From assembly GCF_025947345.1 (NCBI RefSeq), contig NZ_CP110011.1:3658001-3722000 (forward strand): a DNA stretch of 64,000 nt, read 5' to 3'. This DNA is from Flavobacterium sp. N502536 (GTDB taxonomy: Bacteria > Bacteroidota > Bacteroidia > Flavobacteriales > Flavobacteriaceae). Below the pieces are notes generated by a model. It searched no databases. It had not been told where the DNA came from and saw only the letters and a program-made list of their open reading frames with translations. A program made the translations under genes and the position numbers. The stretch's first letter is position 1, and every line of letters starts with the position of its first letter. Shown here piece after piece: positions 26,907 to 34,255 of this stretch.

Positions 26907-28196
26907 CTACCCCAAAAAGGCTTTCAACTCTTCATAACTCTTAATCTTCACACTAACTTTCTCCTCATTGATAACACTCTCAATTTGAGCAGGAATAGGA
27001 AGTGTAATTCCTAAAGCGGGTTCAACCACATCCAGGAACTTGATAGGATGTGCTGTTTCTAAGAAAATACCAATTGCATTGGGGTGTTTTTCCAATTCTT
27101 TTTTCAAACCTAAATAGCCAACAGCACCGTGTGGTTCTGCAATATAGCCGTCTGTGGTATAAATATTTTTTAGAGCAATAAGTGTTTCTTCGTCGGTATA
27201 ACTATATGAAGAGAAGTCTTTTTCGAAAGCTTTTAAGTCGTTGTTATACAATTCCTGAATTCGGATAAAGTTACTTGGATTTCCAACGTCCATAGCGTTT
27301 GAAATTGTTGTTTTTGAAGGTTTTGGATCGTATTTTCCGTTTTCTAAGAATCGGGGTACGGTGTCGTTTACATTGGTAGACGCTACAAAATGTTCGATGG
27401 GTAATCCTAATCTTTTTGCCATGATTCCGGCGCAGATGTTTCCGAAGTTTCCACTTGGACAAGAGAAAACCAACGGTTTGTTTTGACTTTTCAAAGCTTT
27501 ATAAGCAAAGAAAAAATAGAACATTTGCGGTAACCAGCGCGCAATATTGATAGAATTGGCCGAAGTCAGATTTTTATGTGCTAACGTTTCATCTAAAAAC
27601 GCTTTTTTGACCATATCCTGACAATCATCAAAAACTCCGTCAACTTCAAGGGCTTTAATGTTTTGTCCTAAAGTGGTCAATTGTTTTTCCTGAATGTCGC
27701 TGACTTTACCTGATGGATATAAAATCACGACATCTACACCGTCAACGCCCAAGAAACCACTGGCAACAGCACCCCCGGTATCTCCGGAAGTAGCTACAAG
27801 GACAGTGTTTTTACTGTCTTTTTTGTCTTTGTTAAAATAGGCCAGACAGCGTGACATAAAACGTGCTCCAACATCTTTAAAAGCCATGGTTGGGCCGTGG
27901 AATAATTCCAGGGAATAGATATCTTTTTCGACTTTCACCACCGGAAAATCAAAACATAAAGTCTCGGCAATAATTTCTTTTAACGTCGAAGCGGGAATTT
28001 CGTCGCCAACGAATTGCTGGATAGCTTCAAAAGCAATTTCTTCATTGCTTAAATTTTCAATGGTGTCAAAAAAGGAGACGTCTAAAGCGGTGATGTTTTC
28101 GGGGAAGTACAATCCTTTATCACTCGCAAGTCCTTGTATTACGGCTTCCTGAAACGAAACCTTTGGAGCATTATGGTTTAAACTATAGTATTTCAT
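26907..28196 (-). CDS. thrC: Threonine synthase
   Basis: 429 residues. MKYYSLNHNAPKVSFQEAVIQGL is the usual N-terminus; the PLP lysine is in FHGPTMAFKDVGARFM (about 105), with ATSGDTGGAVASGF binding the phosphate and FSCPSGNFGNICAG further on. It converts O-phosphohomoserine to threonine, the last step of the pathway. Third gene of thrA-thrB-thrC, about 300 bp after thrB with a large palindrome in the gap. Confidence 0.96.
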   Translation of the reverse strand: MKYYSLNHNAPKVSFQEAVIQGLASDKGLYFPENITALDVSFFDTIENLSNEEIAFEAIQQFVGDEIPASTLKEIIAETLCFDFPVVKVEKDIYSLELFHGPTMAFKDVGARFMSRCLAYFNKDKKDSKNTVLVATSGDTGGAVASGFLGVDGVDVVILYPSGKVSDIQEKQLTTLGQNIKALEVDGVFDDCQDMVKKAFLDETLAHKNLTSANSINIARWLPQMFYFFFAYKALKSQNKPLVFSCPSGNFGNICAGIMAKRLGLPIEHFVASTNVNDTVPRFLENGKYDPKPSKTTISNAMDVGNPSNFIRIQELYNNDLKAFEKDFSSYSYTDEETLIALKNIYTTDGYIAEPHGAVGYLGLKKELEKHPNAIGIFLETAHPIKFLDVVEPALGITLPIPAQIESVINEEKVSVKIKSYEELKAFLG

Positions 28197-28499: not shown

Positions 28500-29423
28500 T
28501 TAAAGAATCCTCACGCCATCGGGATTAATCTTCGAAACATGAATTTCATATGGCAAATTCATTTTTTTATAAACATCGCTCATGGCTTTGGCGATTTGAT
28601 CGGCGGTATTTTTTCCTCTGCTTAAAGCGAAAATCGAAGGACCAGAACCTGAAATTCCTGAGCCTAAAGCACCGTTTTCAAGCGCCGTTTGTTTGATTTG
28701 ATCAAATCCCGGAATCAAGACACTTCTTAAAGGTTCAACGATTTCGTCATGAAGCGATCTTCCAATCAAATCGTAATCTTTGGTGTATAAGCCTGCTACA
28801 AGCCCGCCTACATTTCCCCACTGCATGATGGCACTTTTGAGTGAGACGTTTTGTTTTAGTACCGAGCGCGCATCCGAAGTTTTCAATTCAATTTGAGGAT
28901 GAACCACGGTAGCGAACAATTCTTCGGGGCTGTCAATTCGAATAATGTCTAAGGGCGCGTAACTTCTTACGAGCGTAAAACCGCCCAAAAGGGCAGGAGC
29001 CACATTATCGGCATGCGCATTTCCGCTGGCTAGTTTTTCACCCTGCATGGCAAATTGTACCAAATCTTTACGGGAATAAGGACGTCCCAGGAGCTCATTG
29101 ATTCCAAAAACCGCTCCGGCAGAACTGGCAGCACTGCTTCCAATTCCGCTTCCGGCTTTAATATGTTTGTAAATTTCGATTTCGAAACCAAAATCCAGTT
29201 CGTCTAAAGTTTCCAGCATCGCCAGAGCCGCAACCCCTGAAACATTTTTATCGGTTTCTAAAGGCAAATTGGCTCCTTCAATTTTAGTAATTCGGACTCC
29301 TTTCTGAGCGACTTTTCGAACAATCATTTCGTCGCCCGCATTGTCTAAGCAAAGCCCAAGCACATCAAATCCACACGAAAGATTCGCAATAGTTGCTGGG
29401 CAAAATAGTTTTATTTCTTTCAT
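28500..29423 (-). CDS. thrB: Homoserine kinase
   Basis: 307 residues from the ATG at 29423 (MKEIKLFCPATIANLSCGFDVLGLC). The frame is open 25 codons further upstream, but that part encodes repeat-derived sequence and lacks family similarity, so the inner ATG is preferred. GHMP-kinase motif: KAGSGIGSSAASSAG (about 85-100). It phosphorylates homoserine with ATP. Second gene of the thr operon, 144 bp after thrA with a repeat-filled spacer. Confidence 0.95.
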   Translation of the reverse strand: MKEIKLFCPATIANLSCGFDVLGLCLDNAGDEMIVRKVAQKGVRITKIEGANLPLETDKNVSGVAALAMLETLDELDFGFEIEIYKHIKAGSGIGSSAASSAGAVFGINELLGRPYSRKDLVQFAMQGEKLASGNAHADNVAPALLGGFTLVRSYAPLDIIRIDSPEELFATVVHPQIELKTSDARSVLKQNVSLKSAIMQWGNVGGLVAGLYTKDYDLIGRSLHDEIVEPLRSVLIPGFDQIKQTALENGALGSGISGSGPSIFALSRGKNTADQIAKAMSDVYKKMNLPYEIHVSKINPDGVRIL

Positions 29424-29430
29424 TTTTATA

Positions 29431-29566
29431 GGTTCAGAGTGGCAAAGGTTCAAAGGTTCAGAGGTTTTACTACTCATTATTTTTATTTTAAGATTCAAAG
29501 AGACAAAGGATCATAGGTTGAAAGCTTTTAACTTTGTTGCTTTGAACCTTTGATCCTTTGTACCTA
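29431..29566. repeat. Repeat-filled thrA-thrB spacer
   Basis: Contains GGTTCAGAGTGGCAAAGGTT (29431-29450), identical to 19928-19947, plus further AAGGTTCA units. An inverted pair follows (ACAAAGGATCATAGGTT near 29503-29519 and AACCTTTGATCCTTTGT near 29547-29563), which can fold into a hairpin in the thr mRNA. Confidence 0.65.
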
Positions 29567-29567
29567 A

Positions 29568-32015
29568 CTAAACGTTTCCAATACGAATCACATCCGCAAA
29601 AATTCCTGATGCGGTTACGGCGGCACCTGCTCCGGCGCCTTTGATCAGTAATGGCTGATCTACGTAGCGATCGGTGTAGAAAAGTACAATATTGTCTTTT
29701 CCTTCTAAATTGTAAAAAGGATGCTCTTTTGGAATGAATTGCAGACCAACACTTGCTTTTCCGTTTTCGAATTGTGCTACATATTTCAATCTGGAATCTT
29801 TGCTCAATGCTTCGTCATATATTTTAGCAAAATGAGGAGCATGTTGCGTTAAAGAAGCAAAGAAATCTTCGTTGTTGGTTGTGGCAAGACATTCGGCTGG
29901 TAGGAACGATTCGTTGGCGATTGCATCAATATCCATTTCGTAACCGCTTTCGCGAATCAGGATCAGGATTTTACGGGCTACGTCGATTCCGCTTAAGTCA
30001 ATTTTAGGATCCGGTTCGGTAAAACCTTGTACTCCGGCTTCTTTTACAACATCATGAAAAGAATTGTCTTTGTCGAAATTGTTGAATATGAAGTTCAGAC
30101 TTCCGGATAAAACAGCCTGAATTTTATGTACTTTATCTCCCGAAGCAATTAAGTTTTTTACCGTATCTATAATTGGTAATCCAGCGCCAACATTGGTTTC
30201 AAACAAAAATGGAGCGTTGTATTGACGGGATAAGTTCTTTAATTTTTTATAATTGTCATAGGCAGACGAACAGGCAATTTTGTTGCAGGTCACTACCGCA
30301 ATACTCTGTTTTAAGAAATTTTCATAGGTTTCAGAAACACTCGCATTTGCAGTGATGTCGACAAAAATGCTGTTGCGTAAATTCAGTTCTTTCGCACGGG
30401 CGATAAAGGCTTCTTTATTGGCGTTTTCACCTTTGTCGAGAGCCGATTGCCATTCTTTTAAGGAAATTCCGTCCTCGTCAAAAAGCATTTTTCGGGAATT
30501 AGACAAAGCGATCACGCGTACGTTAATCTTCAAATTGTCTTTTAAAAACCTTCTTTGATTGTGAATTTGCTCGATGAATTTTTCACCCACATTTCCAACA
30601 CCCATCACAAATAAATTGAGCTGTTTGGTGTTTTCTTCAAAGAAGTTTTCGTGTAAAGTGTTCAATGCTTTTTTAACGTCTCTTTCGTTGATTACTGTAG
30701 AGATATTGCGCTCAGATGCTCCCTGTGCAATAGCACGGATGTTGACATTGTTTTTTCCTAAAGTACTAAACATTCTACCACTCAAACCTTGATGGTTTTT
30801 CATGTTTTCACCTACCAAGGCAATAATGCAAAGGTCTTTTTCGACAATACAAGGATCGATTTTGTTTTGTGAAATCTCTACTTCAAAAGCTCTGTTGATT
30901 GCAGCCTCTGCATTTTCGGCATCCGAATTAAGGATTCCGATACAGATAGAATGCTCAGAAGAAGCCTGAGTAATAAAGATCACGTTGATTTTTTCCTGCG
31001 ACAATACTTCAAACAAACGTTTTGACGAACCCGAAACTCCGATCATTCCAGGACCTTCAAGTGTTACTAATGAAATATTATCGATATGACTGATCCCTTT
31101 TACAACCGTATCTTTCGACGAAACCTGATCGGAAATTAGCGTTCCTTCGGCTTCCGGTTCAAACGTGTTTTTGATTAAAATGGGAATGTTTTTTCTTAAA
31201 ACAGGCTGAATGGTTGGCGGATACAGCACTTTGGCTCCAAAATGCGATAACTCCATCGCTTCCTGATACGAGATGGTAGCAATAGGGTGGGCCTGCTTTA
31301 CGATTTTAGGATTGGCAGTAAACATTCCGTTAACATCCGTCCAGATTTCCAATTGTTCAGCTTCAAGTGCTCCGGCAATAATGGCCGCAGTATAATCAGA
31401 GCCTCCACGACCCAAAGTAGTAGCGATTCCGTCAAGAGTTAAAGCAATAAATCCCGGAAGTATATTGATTTTGGATTGGTTTTCGGCAAAATATTCCCTG
31501 ATCAGCTGGTTGGAAACTTCGAAATTAACAACTGCTTTTCCAAAATTGTTGTTGGTCTTAATCAGTTCACGGCTGTCTTTGTAAACCGCATTTTTATTCG
31601 TTTGCTGGTACGCCTGTGCAATGATGTAAGACGAAAGTAATTCTCCAAAACTTAAAATGGTATCTGAAGTTCGGGGAGATAATTCGCCCAGTAAAAAACA
31701 GCCGTCCAATAAAGTTTCTAAGTGATTGATGATTCTTTTTACATGGCTTAACAAGCTGCTTTGCTCGCTAACCGGAATCAATTCTTTTAAAGTGTCAAGG
31801 TGTTTTTTCTCGATTTCGGCAACAATTTCTCTGAAACTTTCATCGTTAGCTGCCGCTTTTGCAGCTGCCAATTGCAGTAAATCAGTGACTTTGCTTAACG
31901 CAGATACTACCACAACCAATTGATCCTGCTTCGATTTTTGGTTTATAATTTCGAGAACTAGTTTTATATTTTGTGCATTGGCAACCGAAGTTCCGCCAAA
32001 TTTTAATACTTTCAT
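29568..32015 (-). CDS. thrA: Bifunctional aspartokinase / homoserine dehydrogenase
   Basis: 815 residues. The N-terminal kinase starts MKVLKFGGTSVANAQNI and has GRGGSDYTAA (about 205); two ACT-type regulatory segments occupy about 310-460 (VTLEGPGMIGVSG, IIALVGENMKNHQGL). The C-terminal dehydrogenase starts near LNLFVMGVGNVGEKF (Rossmann) and includes GLPIIDTVKNLIASGD and QGFTEPDPKIDLSGIDVARK. It catalyses the first and third steps from aspartate to homoserine. First structural gene of the operon, 185 bp after the Thr-rich leader ORF. Confidence 0.96.
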   Translation of the reverse strand: MKVLKFGGTSVANAQNIKLVLEIINQKSKQDQLVVVVSALSKVTDLLQLAAAKAAANDESFREIVAEIEKKHLDTLKELIPVSEQSSLLSHVKRIINHLETLLDGCFLLGELSPRTSDTILSFGELLSSYIIAQAYQQTNKNAVYKDSRELIKTNNNFGKAVVNFEVSNQLIREYFAENQSKINILPGFIALTLDGIATTLGRGGSDYTAAIIAGALEAEQLEIWTDVNGMFTANPKIVKQAHPIATISYQEAMELSHFGAKVLYPPTIQPVLRKNIPILIKNTFEPEAEGTLISDQVSSKDTVVKGISHIDNISLVTLEGPGMIGVSGSSKRLFEVLSQEKINVIFITQASSEHSICIGILNSDAENAEAAINRAFEVEISQNKIDPCIVEKDLCIIALVGENMKNHQGLSGRMFSTLGKNNVNIRAIAQGASERNISTVINERDVKKALNTLHENFFEENTKQLNLFVMGVGNVGEKFIEQIHNQRRFLKDNLKINVRVIALSNSRKMLFDEDGISLKEWQSALDKGENANKEAFIARAKELNLRNSIFVDITANASVSETYENFLKQSIAVVTCNKIACSSAYDNYKKLKNLSRQYNAPFLFETNVGAGLPIIDTVKNLIASGDKVHKIQAVLSGSLNFIFNNFDKDNSFHDVVKEAGVQGFTEPDPKIDLSGIDVARKILILIRESGYEMDIDAIANESFLPAECLATTNNEDFFASLTQHAPHFAKIYDEALSKDSRLKYVAQFENGKASVGLQFIPKEHPFYNLEGKDNIVLFYTDRYVDQPLLIKGAGAGAAVTASGIFADVIRIGNV

Positions 32016-32200
32016 TTTTGATGTTTTTTAATAAGGTGCAAAGATTTTTAGTAACAAAGGTTCAAAGGTTATCAACTGTGAACTGAAACTGAAAACTGCG
32101 ACTATTTTTTTCTTTGTAAATGTTTTTTATGTATCCAATAACTCTCTTCTTCTTAGAAAAAAGTACTAGGTAACCTGGATGATATGTAAAATGTATACCC

Positions 32201-32299
32201 CTAAGGGGTAGTAGTTGTTGTAGAAATGGTTGTAGCAGCAATTGCAACTCCGGTTTGAGTTGTTAGTGTAGAATGATATTTTGCGCTGTTACTTTTCAT
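32201..32299 (-). CDS. thrL: thr operon leader peptide (32 residues, attenuator candidate)
   Basis: A hand-translated ORF, ATG at 32299 and TAG at 32201, upstream of thrA in the same orientation. The product begins MKSNSAKYHSTLTTQTG, has 11 Thr and 2 Ile in 32 residues, and ends TTISTTTTTP, closely like the E. coli ThrL peptide. The last Pro codon and stop lie inside a perfect hairpin (TACCCC-TTA-GGGGTA, 32194-32208). In proteobacteria such leaders make ribosome stalling on Thr codons control a terminator. Here a classical terminator is not clear: a weak stem AGGTTACCT before six T residues (about 32158-32176) is the best candidate. Confidence 0.8.
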   Translation of the reverse strand: MKSNSAKYHSTLTTQTGVAIAATTISTTTTTP

Positions 32300-32309
32300 T
32301 TAGGTTTTT

Positions 32310-32317
32310 CAAAAGTA
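32310..32317 (-). promoter_or_regulatory. -7 promoter element of the thr operon leader
   Basis: TACTTTTG on the minus strand, a perfect TAnnTTTG match, ends 10 bp upstream of the leader ATG. Expected transcription start is within a few bases of that ATG, leaving almost no 5' leader before the peptide. Confidence 0.5.
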
Positions 32318-32453
32318 CAGTTTTTTATAAAAGTTAAAAATCTTTCGGGCCTTTTTGTGAATATTTTAAAAAATCAAATGGCATCAAATTAATATTGAGC
32401 TTTTGTCAGAATTGAGTCTGTTAAATTATTGGATTCGTATAAATATACGGGTT

Positions 32454-32740: not shown

Positions 32741-34255
32741 ATGAGAGAAATCCATTATATAAGTACGGAGACCTTAAGTTTAGAAGCTTTACAGGAAATT
32801 ATTGTCAACCAGAAAACGCTTGAGCTATCAGAAGAAGCAAAAGTAAACGTTCAGAAATGTCGTGATTATTTAGATAAAAAAATGGCTTCCCATTCAGAAC
32901 CTATCTACGGAATCAATACTGGTTTTGGATCACTTTGTAATGTGAAAATTTCAAATGAAAACTTATCTCAGCTTCAGGAAAATCTGGTAAAATCGCATGC
33001 TTGCGGAACCGGAGAAGAAGTTCCTGCTGAAATTGTAAAGCTGATGTTGTTGCTTAAAATTCAGTCTTTGAGCTACGGACATTCCGGAATTCAATTGCAG
33101 ACCGTAGAGCGTTTAGTCGATTTTTACAATAATGATATTCTTCCTGTAATCTATACTCAGGGATCCTTGGGAGCTTCAGGAGATTTAGCGCCTTTAGCAC
33201 ATTTATCTTTGCCTTTATTAGGGGAAGGAGAGGTTTTATTTGAAGGAAAAAAAACAGCTGCTGCTGAAGTTTTAAAACATTTTGGATGGGAACCTATCGT
33301 TTTACAGTCCAAAGAAGGTTTGGCTTTGCTAAACGGAACTCAGTTTATGAGCGCTTATGGAGCACATATTTTATTAAAAGCCTATAAATATTCGTATTTG
33401 GCAGATTTAATCGGAACTATTTCATTAGAAGGTTTTGATGGAAGAATTGAGCCTTTTAACGAGTTAATTCATTTTATCCGTCCTCACAAAGGGCAAATTG
33501 TAACGGCACAACGCATTACGGAGTTTTTAGAAGGAAGCCAGATCATTGCTCAGGAGAAAAAACATGTACAGGATCCGTATTCTTTCCGTTGTATGCCACA
33601 AGTTCATGGTGCTTCAAAAGATGCCATTGATTATGTTAGAAAAGTATTTAAAACCGAGATCAATTCGGTTACAGACAATCCAAATATTTTTATAGAAGCC
33701 GATCAGATCATTTCAGGAGGAAATTTCCACGGACAACCTTTGGCTTTGGCATTGGATTTCATGGCAATTGCTTTGGCTGAATTGGGAAGTATTTCTGAAA
33801 GAAGAACGTATCAGTTGATTTCAGGACTGCGTAATCTTCCTGCGTTTTTAGTAGATAATCCGGGATTGAATTCAGGATTTATGATTCCGCAATATACTGC
33901 TGCCAGTATCGCAAGTCAGAACAAACAATTGGCAACTCCGTCAAGTATCGACAGTATCGTTTCAAGTAACGGACAGGAAGATCATGTGAGTATGGGAGCC
34001 AACGGAGCTACAAAAGCATTGCGTGTTATGGATAATCTGGAACGTATTTTGGCAATCGAATTGTTGAATGCTTCTCAGGCGATTGCTTACAGAGCACCTT
34101 TAAAATCAAGCGATTTCATCGAAATGTTTTTGAACAGTTACAGAGAGGTCGTGCCGTTGGTTAAAGAAGACAGAATTCTGCATTATGATATTAAAAAAAC
34201 AGTTGAATTCCTTGACAGTTTCCAAATTGAAAACGATTTGTTAACAATGGCTTAA
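32741..34255 (+). CDS. hutH: Histidine ammonia-lyase
   Basis: 504 residues, normal for HutH. YGINTGFGSLCNVKI precedes the MIO-forming Ala-Ser-Gly in GSLGASGDLAPLAHLSLPLLG (about 143). SVTDNPNIF and SANGQEDHVSMGANGA-like blocks complete the active site. It deaminates histidine to urocanate, the first step of histidine degradation. The other hut genes are not adjacent. A tyrosine-specific lyase cannot be wholly excluded, but the SHACGTGEE and YRAPLKSS regions favour histidine. Confidence 0.92.
   Translation: MREIHYISTETLSLEALQEIIVNQKTLELSEEAKVNVQKCRDYLDKKMASHSEPIYGINTGFGSLCNVKISNENLSQLQENLVKSHACGTGEEVPAEIVKLMLLLKIQSLSYGHSGIQLQTVERLVDFYNNDILPVIYTQGSLGASGDLAPLAHLSLPLLGEGEVLFEGKKTAAAEVLKHFGWEPIVLQSKEGLALLNGTQFMSAYGAHILLKAYKYSYLADLIGTISLEGFDGRIEPFNELIHFIRPHKGQIVTAQRITEFLEGSQIIAQEKKHVQDPYSFRCMPQVHGASKDAIDYVRKVFKTEINSVTDNPNIFIEADQIISGGNFHGQPLALALDFMAIALAELGSISERRTYQLISGLRNLPAFLVDNPGLNSGFMIPQYTAASIASQNKQLATPSSIDSIVSSNGQEDHVSMGANGATKALRVMDNLERILAIELLNASQAIAYRAPLKSSDFIEMFLNSYREVVPLVKEDRILHYDIKKTVEFLDSFQIENDLLTMA

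Follow-up and report, generated by a model that had tools for sequence, protein, structure and literature searches.

The window, a stretch of 64,000 nt of Flavobacterium sp. N502536 (NZ_CP110011.1), carries a thr locus on its minus strand, in which a short Thr-rich ORF lies 185 nt upstream of thrA. In enterobacteria, thrABC is preceded by the thr attenuator (ThrL), whose short leader ORF contains stretches of Thr and Ile codons. The question raised by the locus was whether the Flavobacterium ORF is a leader peptide of this kind and, if so, by which output step it could set the expression of the operon.

The thr locus and its leader ORF

The gene order is leader ORF, thrA, thrB, and thrC (thrABC operon). 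The features of the locus are as follows.

26907..28196, minus strand: thrC, threonine synthase (profile match)
28500..29498, minus strand: thrB, homoserine kinase (coordinates of the listed ORF; as its profile match starts at residue 31, the true start may be internal)
29568..32015, minus strand: thrA, bifunctional aspartate kinase/homoserine dehydrogenase I (profile match NF006959, 1061.5 bits, cut-off 726)
32144..32163, minus strand: hairpin H2, with a U-rich 5' arm and no U-run after it
32177..32186, minus strand: conserved segment D1, CATATCATCC, recognized by eye
32196..32210, minus strand: hairpin H1, TACCCC-TTA-GGGGTA, 6 bp, overlapping the leader stop codon
32201..32299, minus strand: leader ORF, MKSNSAKYHSTLTTQTGVAIAATTISTTTTTP, 32 codons with 11 Thr, ATG start and TAG stop
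32207..32233, minus strand: control codons TTISTTTTT, adjoining H1
32310..32317, minus strand: -7 promoter box TACTTTTG, Bacteroidetes sigma-A type, 10 nt before the leader ATG

The initial annotation had described a 32-codon ORF with 11 Thr codons between a -7 box and thrA, and a stop codon within a perfect 6-bp hairpin. Both were borne out when the ORF was re-read at 32299..32201, the TAG being located in the loop and the 3' arm of H1. It had also expected the promoter to leave almost no 5' leader. In PMC9723704, the -7 box is placed at -12 to -5, and in PMC6847099, 4-5 nt are given between the box and the start. With the box taken at -12 to -5, the transcription start is predicted at ~32305 and the 5' leader at ~6 nt, which supports the expectation. 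Of 142 genus loci, 136 had a TAnnTTTG box in the 70 nt before the leader start, as did 56 of 69 family loci; in 122 of these 136 genus loci, the box was situated 9-12 nt before the start. A second promoter between H1 and thrA was considered and rejected, an exact TAnnTTTG occurring there in 3/143 genus and 10/69 family loci.

No Rfam family reached its gathering score anywhere in the 64-kb window. At 31990-32360, the best of five sub-threshold matches scored 21.4 bits against a cut-off of 60, and a riboswitch or T-box was rejected for lack of an Rfam match. When the window's genome was searched for a second copy of the element, the exact pattern CCCC..GGGGT..CATAT matched once, at the thr site itself. 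The divergent neighbor of the thr operon is hutH (histidine ammonia-lyase; 32741-34255, plus strand). The same genome has a second bifunctional aspartokinase/homoserine dehydrogenase (G000:C1:2261441-2263843; 37% identical), which is situated shortly after an upstream open frame.

Conservation of the control codons and of hairpin H1

Thr-leader ORFs were found at 144 of 148 Flavobacterium loci. The ORF was present at every one of the 80 named Flavobacterium loci, which were the best 80 of 340 and all came from close relatives, and at 64 of 68 further genus loci (L001-L030 and L111-L148, L001 being the window's own). Some species occurred in both sets, and 121 of the 133 extracted sequences were unique. 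The 68 loci are nearly all of the clear thrA orthologues among the 101 genus genomes searched; thrA-like matches in the other 31 genomes were distant, partial or absent. The leader ORF was missing at L125, L126, L137, and L143, the last of which is near a contig end. H1 was matched at 143/148 genus loci, and L146 carries a variant H1 outside this pattern count. In L097 (F. johnsoniae CI04), the stop codon in H1 is lost and the leader frame extends to 61 codons.

The control codons were conserved codon by codon. In 57 unique eight-codon genus runs, numbered back from the Pro codon, Thr stood at codons -5 to -2 in 50-53 runs, Ile was the commonest replacement of Thr at codons -4 to -2, and codon -1, which forms part of H1, was ACC in 56. 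The Thr codons varied synonymously in the genus (ACA, ACT, ACC, ACG), and the mean entropy of the three codon positions was 0.61, 0.56, and 0.98 bits over the 57 runs. The alignment proposed in the initial annotation as a check thus gave conserved Thr codons, a conserved frame and synonymous Thr changes; the covarying stems that it had also named were found to a slight degree. The pair just outside the H1 core was paired in 41 of 67 sequences vs 30 in shuffles (p 0.004), and farther out one of four levels had a slight excess, in Watson-Crick pairs (p 0.042). The slightness of this covariation is accounted for by the H1 core being nearly invariant.

To cover the family, thrA was matched at 1e-170 in 88 of 120 Flavobacteriaceae genomes, the window's own counted, and the upstream DNA was covered for 86 of the 87 other genera. 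A Thr/Ile leader was present in 73 of these 86 genera, in 69 by the H1 pattern (69 of 79 family loci with a located thrA start) and in four by eye (L196, L226, L220, and L229). No Thr/Ile leader was seen in 13 of the 86 (L189, L195, L208, L210, L212, L213, L215, L227, L228, L233, L234, L235, and L236). At L208, L212, L215, and L228, thrA apparently follows straight after another reading frame, without a leader of its own in the stretch examined.

A suitably placed ORF occurred at all 69 family loci, which the search window (H1 to 40 nt past it) makes likely anyway; therefore, the evidence for a leader in the family is the Thr/Ile content. Thr and Ile made up 6.2 of the last 11 codons vs 0.6 and 0.3 in the other two frames, a contrast that arises partly by choice, as the Thr/Ile-richest qualifying frame was taken per locus. 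L225 is a poor member of the 69, with hardly any Thr/Ile. In a scan without per-locus choice, a Thr/Ile-rich frame ending on an ACC..GGGT hairpin was found in 49 of the 69 thrA upstream regions, and the same scan of other DNA of ten family genomes, 800,000 strand-bases in all, gave 2 matches. A chance ORF was ruled out by the conservation together with this background rate.

The end of the family ORF ranged from 5 nt ahead of the H1 end to 19 nt past it (68 of the 69 listed). Across the genera, the peptide ended in TTP*, TTPLG*, TTPFGV*, TTLWGC* or TTRLGC*, while the RNA kept ACCC-loop-GGGU. The peptide ends differ because the frame register over H1 shifts between genera; since ACCC/GGGU persists through these shifts, H1 seems to be conserved as an RNA element, and the codons for the amino acid that they specify. 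Judged from the alignments, the control codons of the thr leader are Thr or Ile. Isoleucine is made from threonine, and E. coli ThrL too has Ile codons; Ile as a second cue fits on both counts.

At the class level, 23 of 27 loci (L242-L268) were examined and about 12 carried a Thr/Ile leader by eye, four of them, all of family f39, with a strong terminator by scan. Thr-Thr-Gly stands near the leader end in L253, L254, and L262, and E. coli ThrL also has it near its end. In the f16 loci L251, L255, and L257, the stop codon of the Thr leader is in the loop of ACGGG..CCCGT, the order opposite to that of H1, which suggests that the structure, not the sequence, matters. Taken by its sequence, the short Thr-rich ORF is very probably a Thr/Ile-sensing leader peptide. 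We infer that it regulates thrABC and that its mode is attenuation of transcription.

Terminators and RNA pairing downstream of the leader

The usual GC-rich terminator had been noted as missing downstream, and no GC-rich stem with a T-run was indeed found between the leader and thrA in the window. The terminator scan required a T-run after a stem of 5 or more positions and so misses shorter stems. It gave candidates at just three of the 143 genus loci, scoring 10-13, and at three of the 69 family loci, scoring 14-17. The genus candidates were L001 (the window, 10), L056 (13), and L120 (12), and the family ones were L217 (14), L230 (14), and L232 (17). In L120, L217, L230, and L232, the accepted stem was H1 itself. 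The window's candidate is a five-position stem with one mismatch, CCAGG-TTA-CCTAG, and had the lowest score. By eye, L220 has a terminator, the scan having chosen another site there, and L255 has a four-pair stem, below the length limit of the scan.

Three other leaders of the window's genome served for comparison.

L238, before hisG: his leader, MISIQLHHHHFHYCSQAMC, followed by a stem and T-run
L239, before ilvD: ilv leader, GTG start, containing IIIISVITVNVIIT, followed by a stem and T-run
L240, before trpE: trp leader, MKTIMNNTWWWKNLRRTS, followed by a stem and T-run

Like the thr leader, these are short ORFs with codon runs (His, Ile, and Trp) before the matching genes; unlike it, each is followed by a clear stem and T-run, with scan scores of 21, 18, and 22. 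Therefore, the organism appears to use classical leader-peptide attenuators, and the thr one differs. The thr leaders L229, L252, L253, L254, and L262 scored 17, 22, 26, 26, and 21; L252, L253, L254, and L262 belong to another family of Bacteroidia, and their Thr/Ile leaders have classical terminators. The score of L232 equals that of L229, the weakest accepted control. We hold with considerable confidence that Flavobacterium has no classical intrinsic-terminator switch for thr; the thr sensor is conserved, and its output is probably not classical.

In the RNAalifold consensus of 121 genus sequences, only H1 and one short stem inside the ORF were present. D1 reads CATATAATCC in most Flavobacterium rows and approximately YATAT..TCCG in other genera (both by eye). 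Compared with swapped partners at 79 loci, the pairing of the 5' part of the ORF with the downstream segment (ACGGAC/GTCCGT in L155, L163, and L172) was no better and was rejected; in this comparison, pairing of the Thr run was somewhat stronger than swapped, both to upstream ORF regions (z -2.2 and -3.2) and to the H2 region (z -2.2). Since swapping is uninformative for segments conserved family-wide, the pairing was re-tested with shuffles. Internal pairing of the H2 region exceeded the shuffles (t -4.4 in 36 genus loci and -6.0 in 69 family loci), and that of the H1 5' arm with downstream regions in the family was a little better than shuffles (t -2.2 and -2.9).

The H1-to-thrA distance fell into two classes in the genus, below 125 nt in 80 of 142 loci and at least 125 nt in 62. 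The longer spacing of the window contains the following insert, the only one among the long-spacing loci that was identified as a repeat.

32025..32104, minus strand: ~80-nt insert of a dispersed intergenic repeat, boundaries approximate

The repeat consists of two modules, and partial copies occur in both orientations in several Flavobacterium genomes; a search of 21 genomes gave related pieces in 6, the window's own counted. Pieces like AAAGGTNCAAAGG, with one mismatch allowed, occurred 8 times in the window vs 0.62 expected. Extra DNA before thrA is thus tolerated, which speaks against tight translational coupling or a device touching the thrA start.

Four other explanations were weighed against these results. 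If the leader were a classical attenuator of the E. coli type, a stalled ribosome would let segment 2 (GGGGUAUA) pair with segment 3 (UAUAAUCC) and so block a 3:4 terminator. By eye, GGGGTATA and TATAATCC are pairable at 7 of 8 positions in most Flavobacterium rows, a downstream GGRTRTAT is able to pair with segment 3, and single sequences can partly be folded as 1:2/2:3/3:4; the terminators of the his, ilv, and trp leaders and of the five thr leaders named above fit such a device as well. However, the candidate 3:4 stem has no U-run, the scan results were as sparse as given above, and the consensus was limited to H1 and the short stem inside the ORF. Moreover, the classical 2:3 pairing, here between the H1 3' arm and the segment downstream, was slightly worse than in shuffles (paired t +2.5 in 36 genus loci and +2.4 in 69 family loci). 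We consider this explanation unlikely, and the suggestion of the initial annotation that the mechanism may differ from that of E. coli gains support from the pairing tests and the terminator scan. The Flavobacterium thr leader thus resembles ThrL in being a short ORF with Thr/Ile codon runs ahead of thrABC, and it differs in lacking both a GC-rich stem with U-run and a supported 2:3 antiterminator, in the overlap of its hairpin with the stop codon, and in its short predicted 5' leader. In an equally unlikely explanation, H1, perhaps together with the next segment, would cause pausing or weak intrinsic termination, which a ribosome stalled over the 5' arm would abolish. H1 is the most conserved structure, and as the control codons abut it, a stalled ribosome would cover its 5' arm; in the four loci where the scan accepted H1, a T-rich stretch directly follows it. 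Against this, the scan did not accept H1 at the remaining genus loci (142) and family loci (66), H1 is mostly followed by a mixed A/U stretch, and its distance to D1 varies by several bases.

Translational attenuation, in which the position of the ribosome would change RNA folding at the thrA start and hence translation, is also rather improbable, though it is kept alive by the pairing of the H1 3' arm with the thrA start, which was slightly better than in shuffles (paired t -3.5 in the family and -2.6 in the genus sample). When the H1 5' arm was masked, the predicted accessibility of the start rose by more than 0.05 at 23 of 72 genus loci and fell at 3. Nevertheless, the mean predicted accessibility for free RNA, a stalled ribosome, and a ribosome at the stop stayed near constant, at 0.665, 0.695, and 0.677 in these 72 of the 143 genus loci and 0.545, 0.548, and 0.548 in 69 family loci, and the extra spacing before thrA in 62/142 genus loci is a further point against it. 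It is very improbable that the product of the ORF is a small functional protein with no link to thrA regulation: its N-terminal MKSNS.KY.ST is well conserved among close Flavobacterium loci, but this part is not common across genera, where the Thr/Ile codons and H1 persist, and the position of the ORF is tied to thrA.

A proposed Rho-linked output and related leaders

At the level of predicted features, the comparison of loci shows a leader, Thr/Ile codons set against H1 at the stop codon, a second hairpin, and a near absence of intrinsic terminators. The model that we favor, tentatively and at somewhat under an even chance as a whole, is that the leader peptide senses charged tRNA-Thr and tRNA-Ile in cis and sets thrABC expression through a Rho-type output. 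When threonine is ample, the ribosome would reach the stop codon at H1 and leave. The exposed G-poor run of Thr codons, H1 and the next segment would then form a loading site for Rho, which would terminate RNA polymerase before thrA. When threonine or isoleucine is short, the ribosome would stall on the last Thr/Ile codons, cover the Rho site and keep H1 open, and transcription would continue into thrA.

Rho was our first choice for the output step, a choice held a little more loosely than the model itself, for three reasons: a clear intrinsic terminator is missing, family sequences are rich in C and poor in G after H1, and the Thr run by its nature has the same bias (C 36% and G 5% in the genus). 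After H1, the median C minus G fraction was 0.083 in 69 family loci vs -0.013 for 119 upstream regions that served as controls, drawn from ten genomes (p 7e-18); this comparison sets one locus against mixed genes. In Flavobacterium, the excess of C over G after H1 was not above that of 27 control regions of the window (medians 0.013 vs 0.026, p 0.41). A rho gene without internal stops was found in 19 of 20 other Flavobacterium genomes searched, with no match in G014. In the window's genome, a one-contig assembly, rho (L289, G000:C1:227512-228621) is split over several ORFs; the interrupted frame may be a sequencing error or a real change. D1 and H2 have no proven role in the Rho model.

Taken more broadly, terminator-less ribosome-mediated attenuation of thrABC in Flavobacteriaceae, with Thr/Ile codons abutting a hairpin at or beside the stop codon and termination by Rho or by the hairpin, comes close to an even chance in our estimate without reaching it. 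As related Bacteroidia have classical thr attenuators, the output would have been exchanged and the sensor kept.

Enterobacterial ThrL is not the only system to which the leader can be compared. In tnaC and the topAI uORF, which are reportedly Rho-dependent and have no intrinsic terminator, the position of the ribosome on a short ORF could likewise decide the access of Rho. The difference is that tnaC reads free tryptophan via its nascent peptide, whereas the cue of the thr leader would be scarce charged tRNA, with Rho as the presumed factor. Related predictions may be contained in the work of Lopatovskaya et al. (2010), which PMC4833913 cites. In F. psychrophilum, the available part of PMC9723704 describes strong clues to leader-peptide attenuation ahead of amino-acid biosynthesis operons; regulation of this kind is therefore already known in the genus, likewise upstream of amino-acid operons. 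That part names no thr leader or terminator-less class, and the word "threonine" is absent from the main text. For Bacteroides thetaiotaomicron, PMC7366714 calls short ORFs in long 5' UTRs reminiscent of attenuation leader peptides, the example there being a hypothetical gene and the Flavobacterium case the threonine operon. Among the open-access papers searched, we found no report of a thr leader in Bacteroidetes, nor of the terminator-less form with a hairpin at the stop and its family-wide spread.

Annotation would gain a probable regulatory ORF, present in 73 of the 86 genera of Flavobacteriaceae examined that have such a thrA. If the model is true, one sensor, the Thr/Ile leader peptide, would be joined to different outputs in related bacteria, which would show how attenuators can swap their termination step. 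The locus would then offer a conserved site at which to probe transcription-translation coupling and the function of Rho in a phylum without Shine-Dalgarno initiation.
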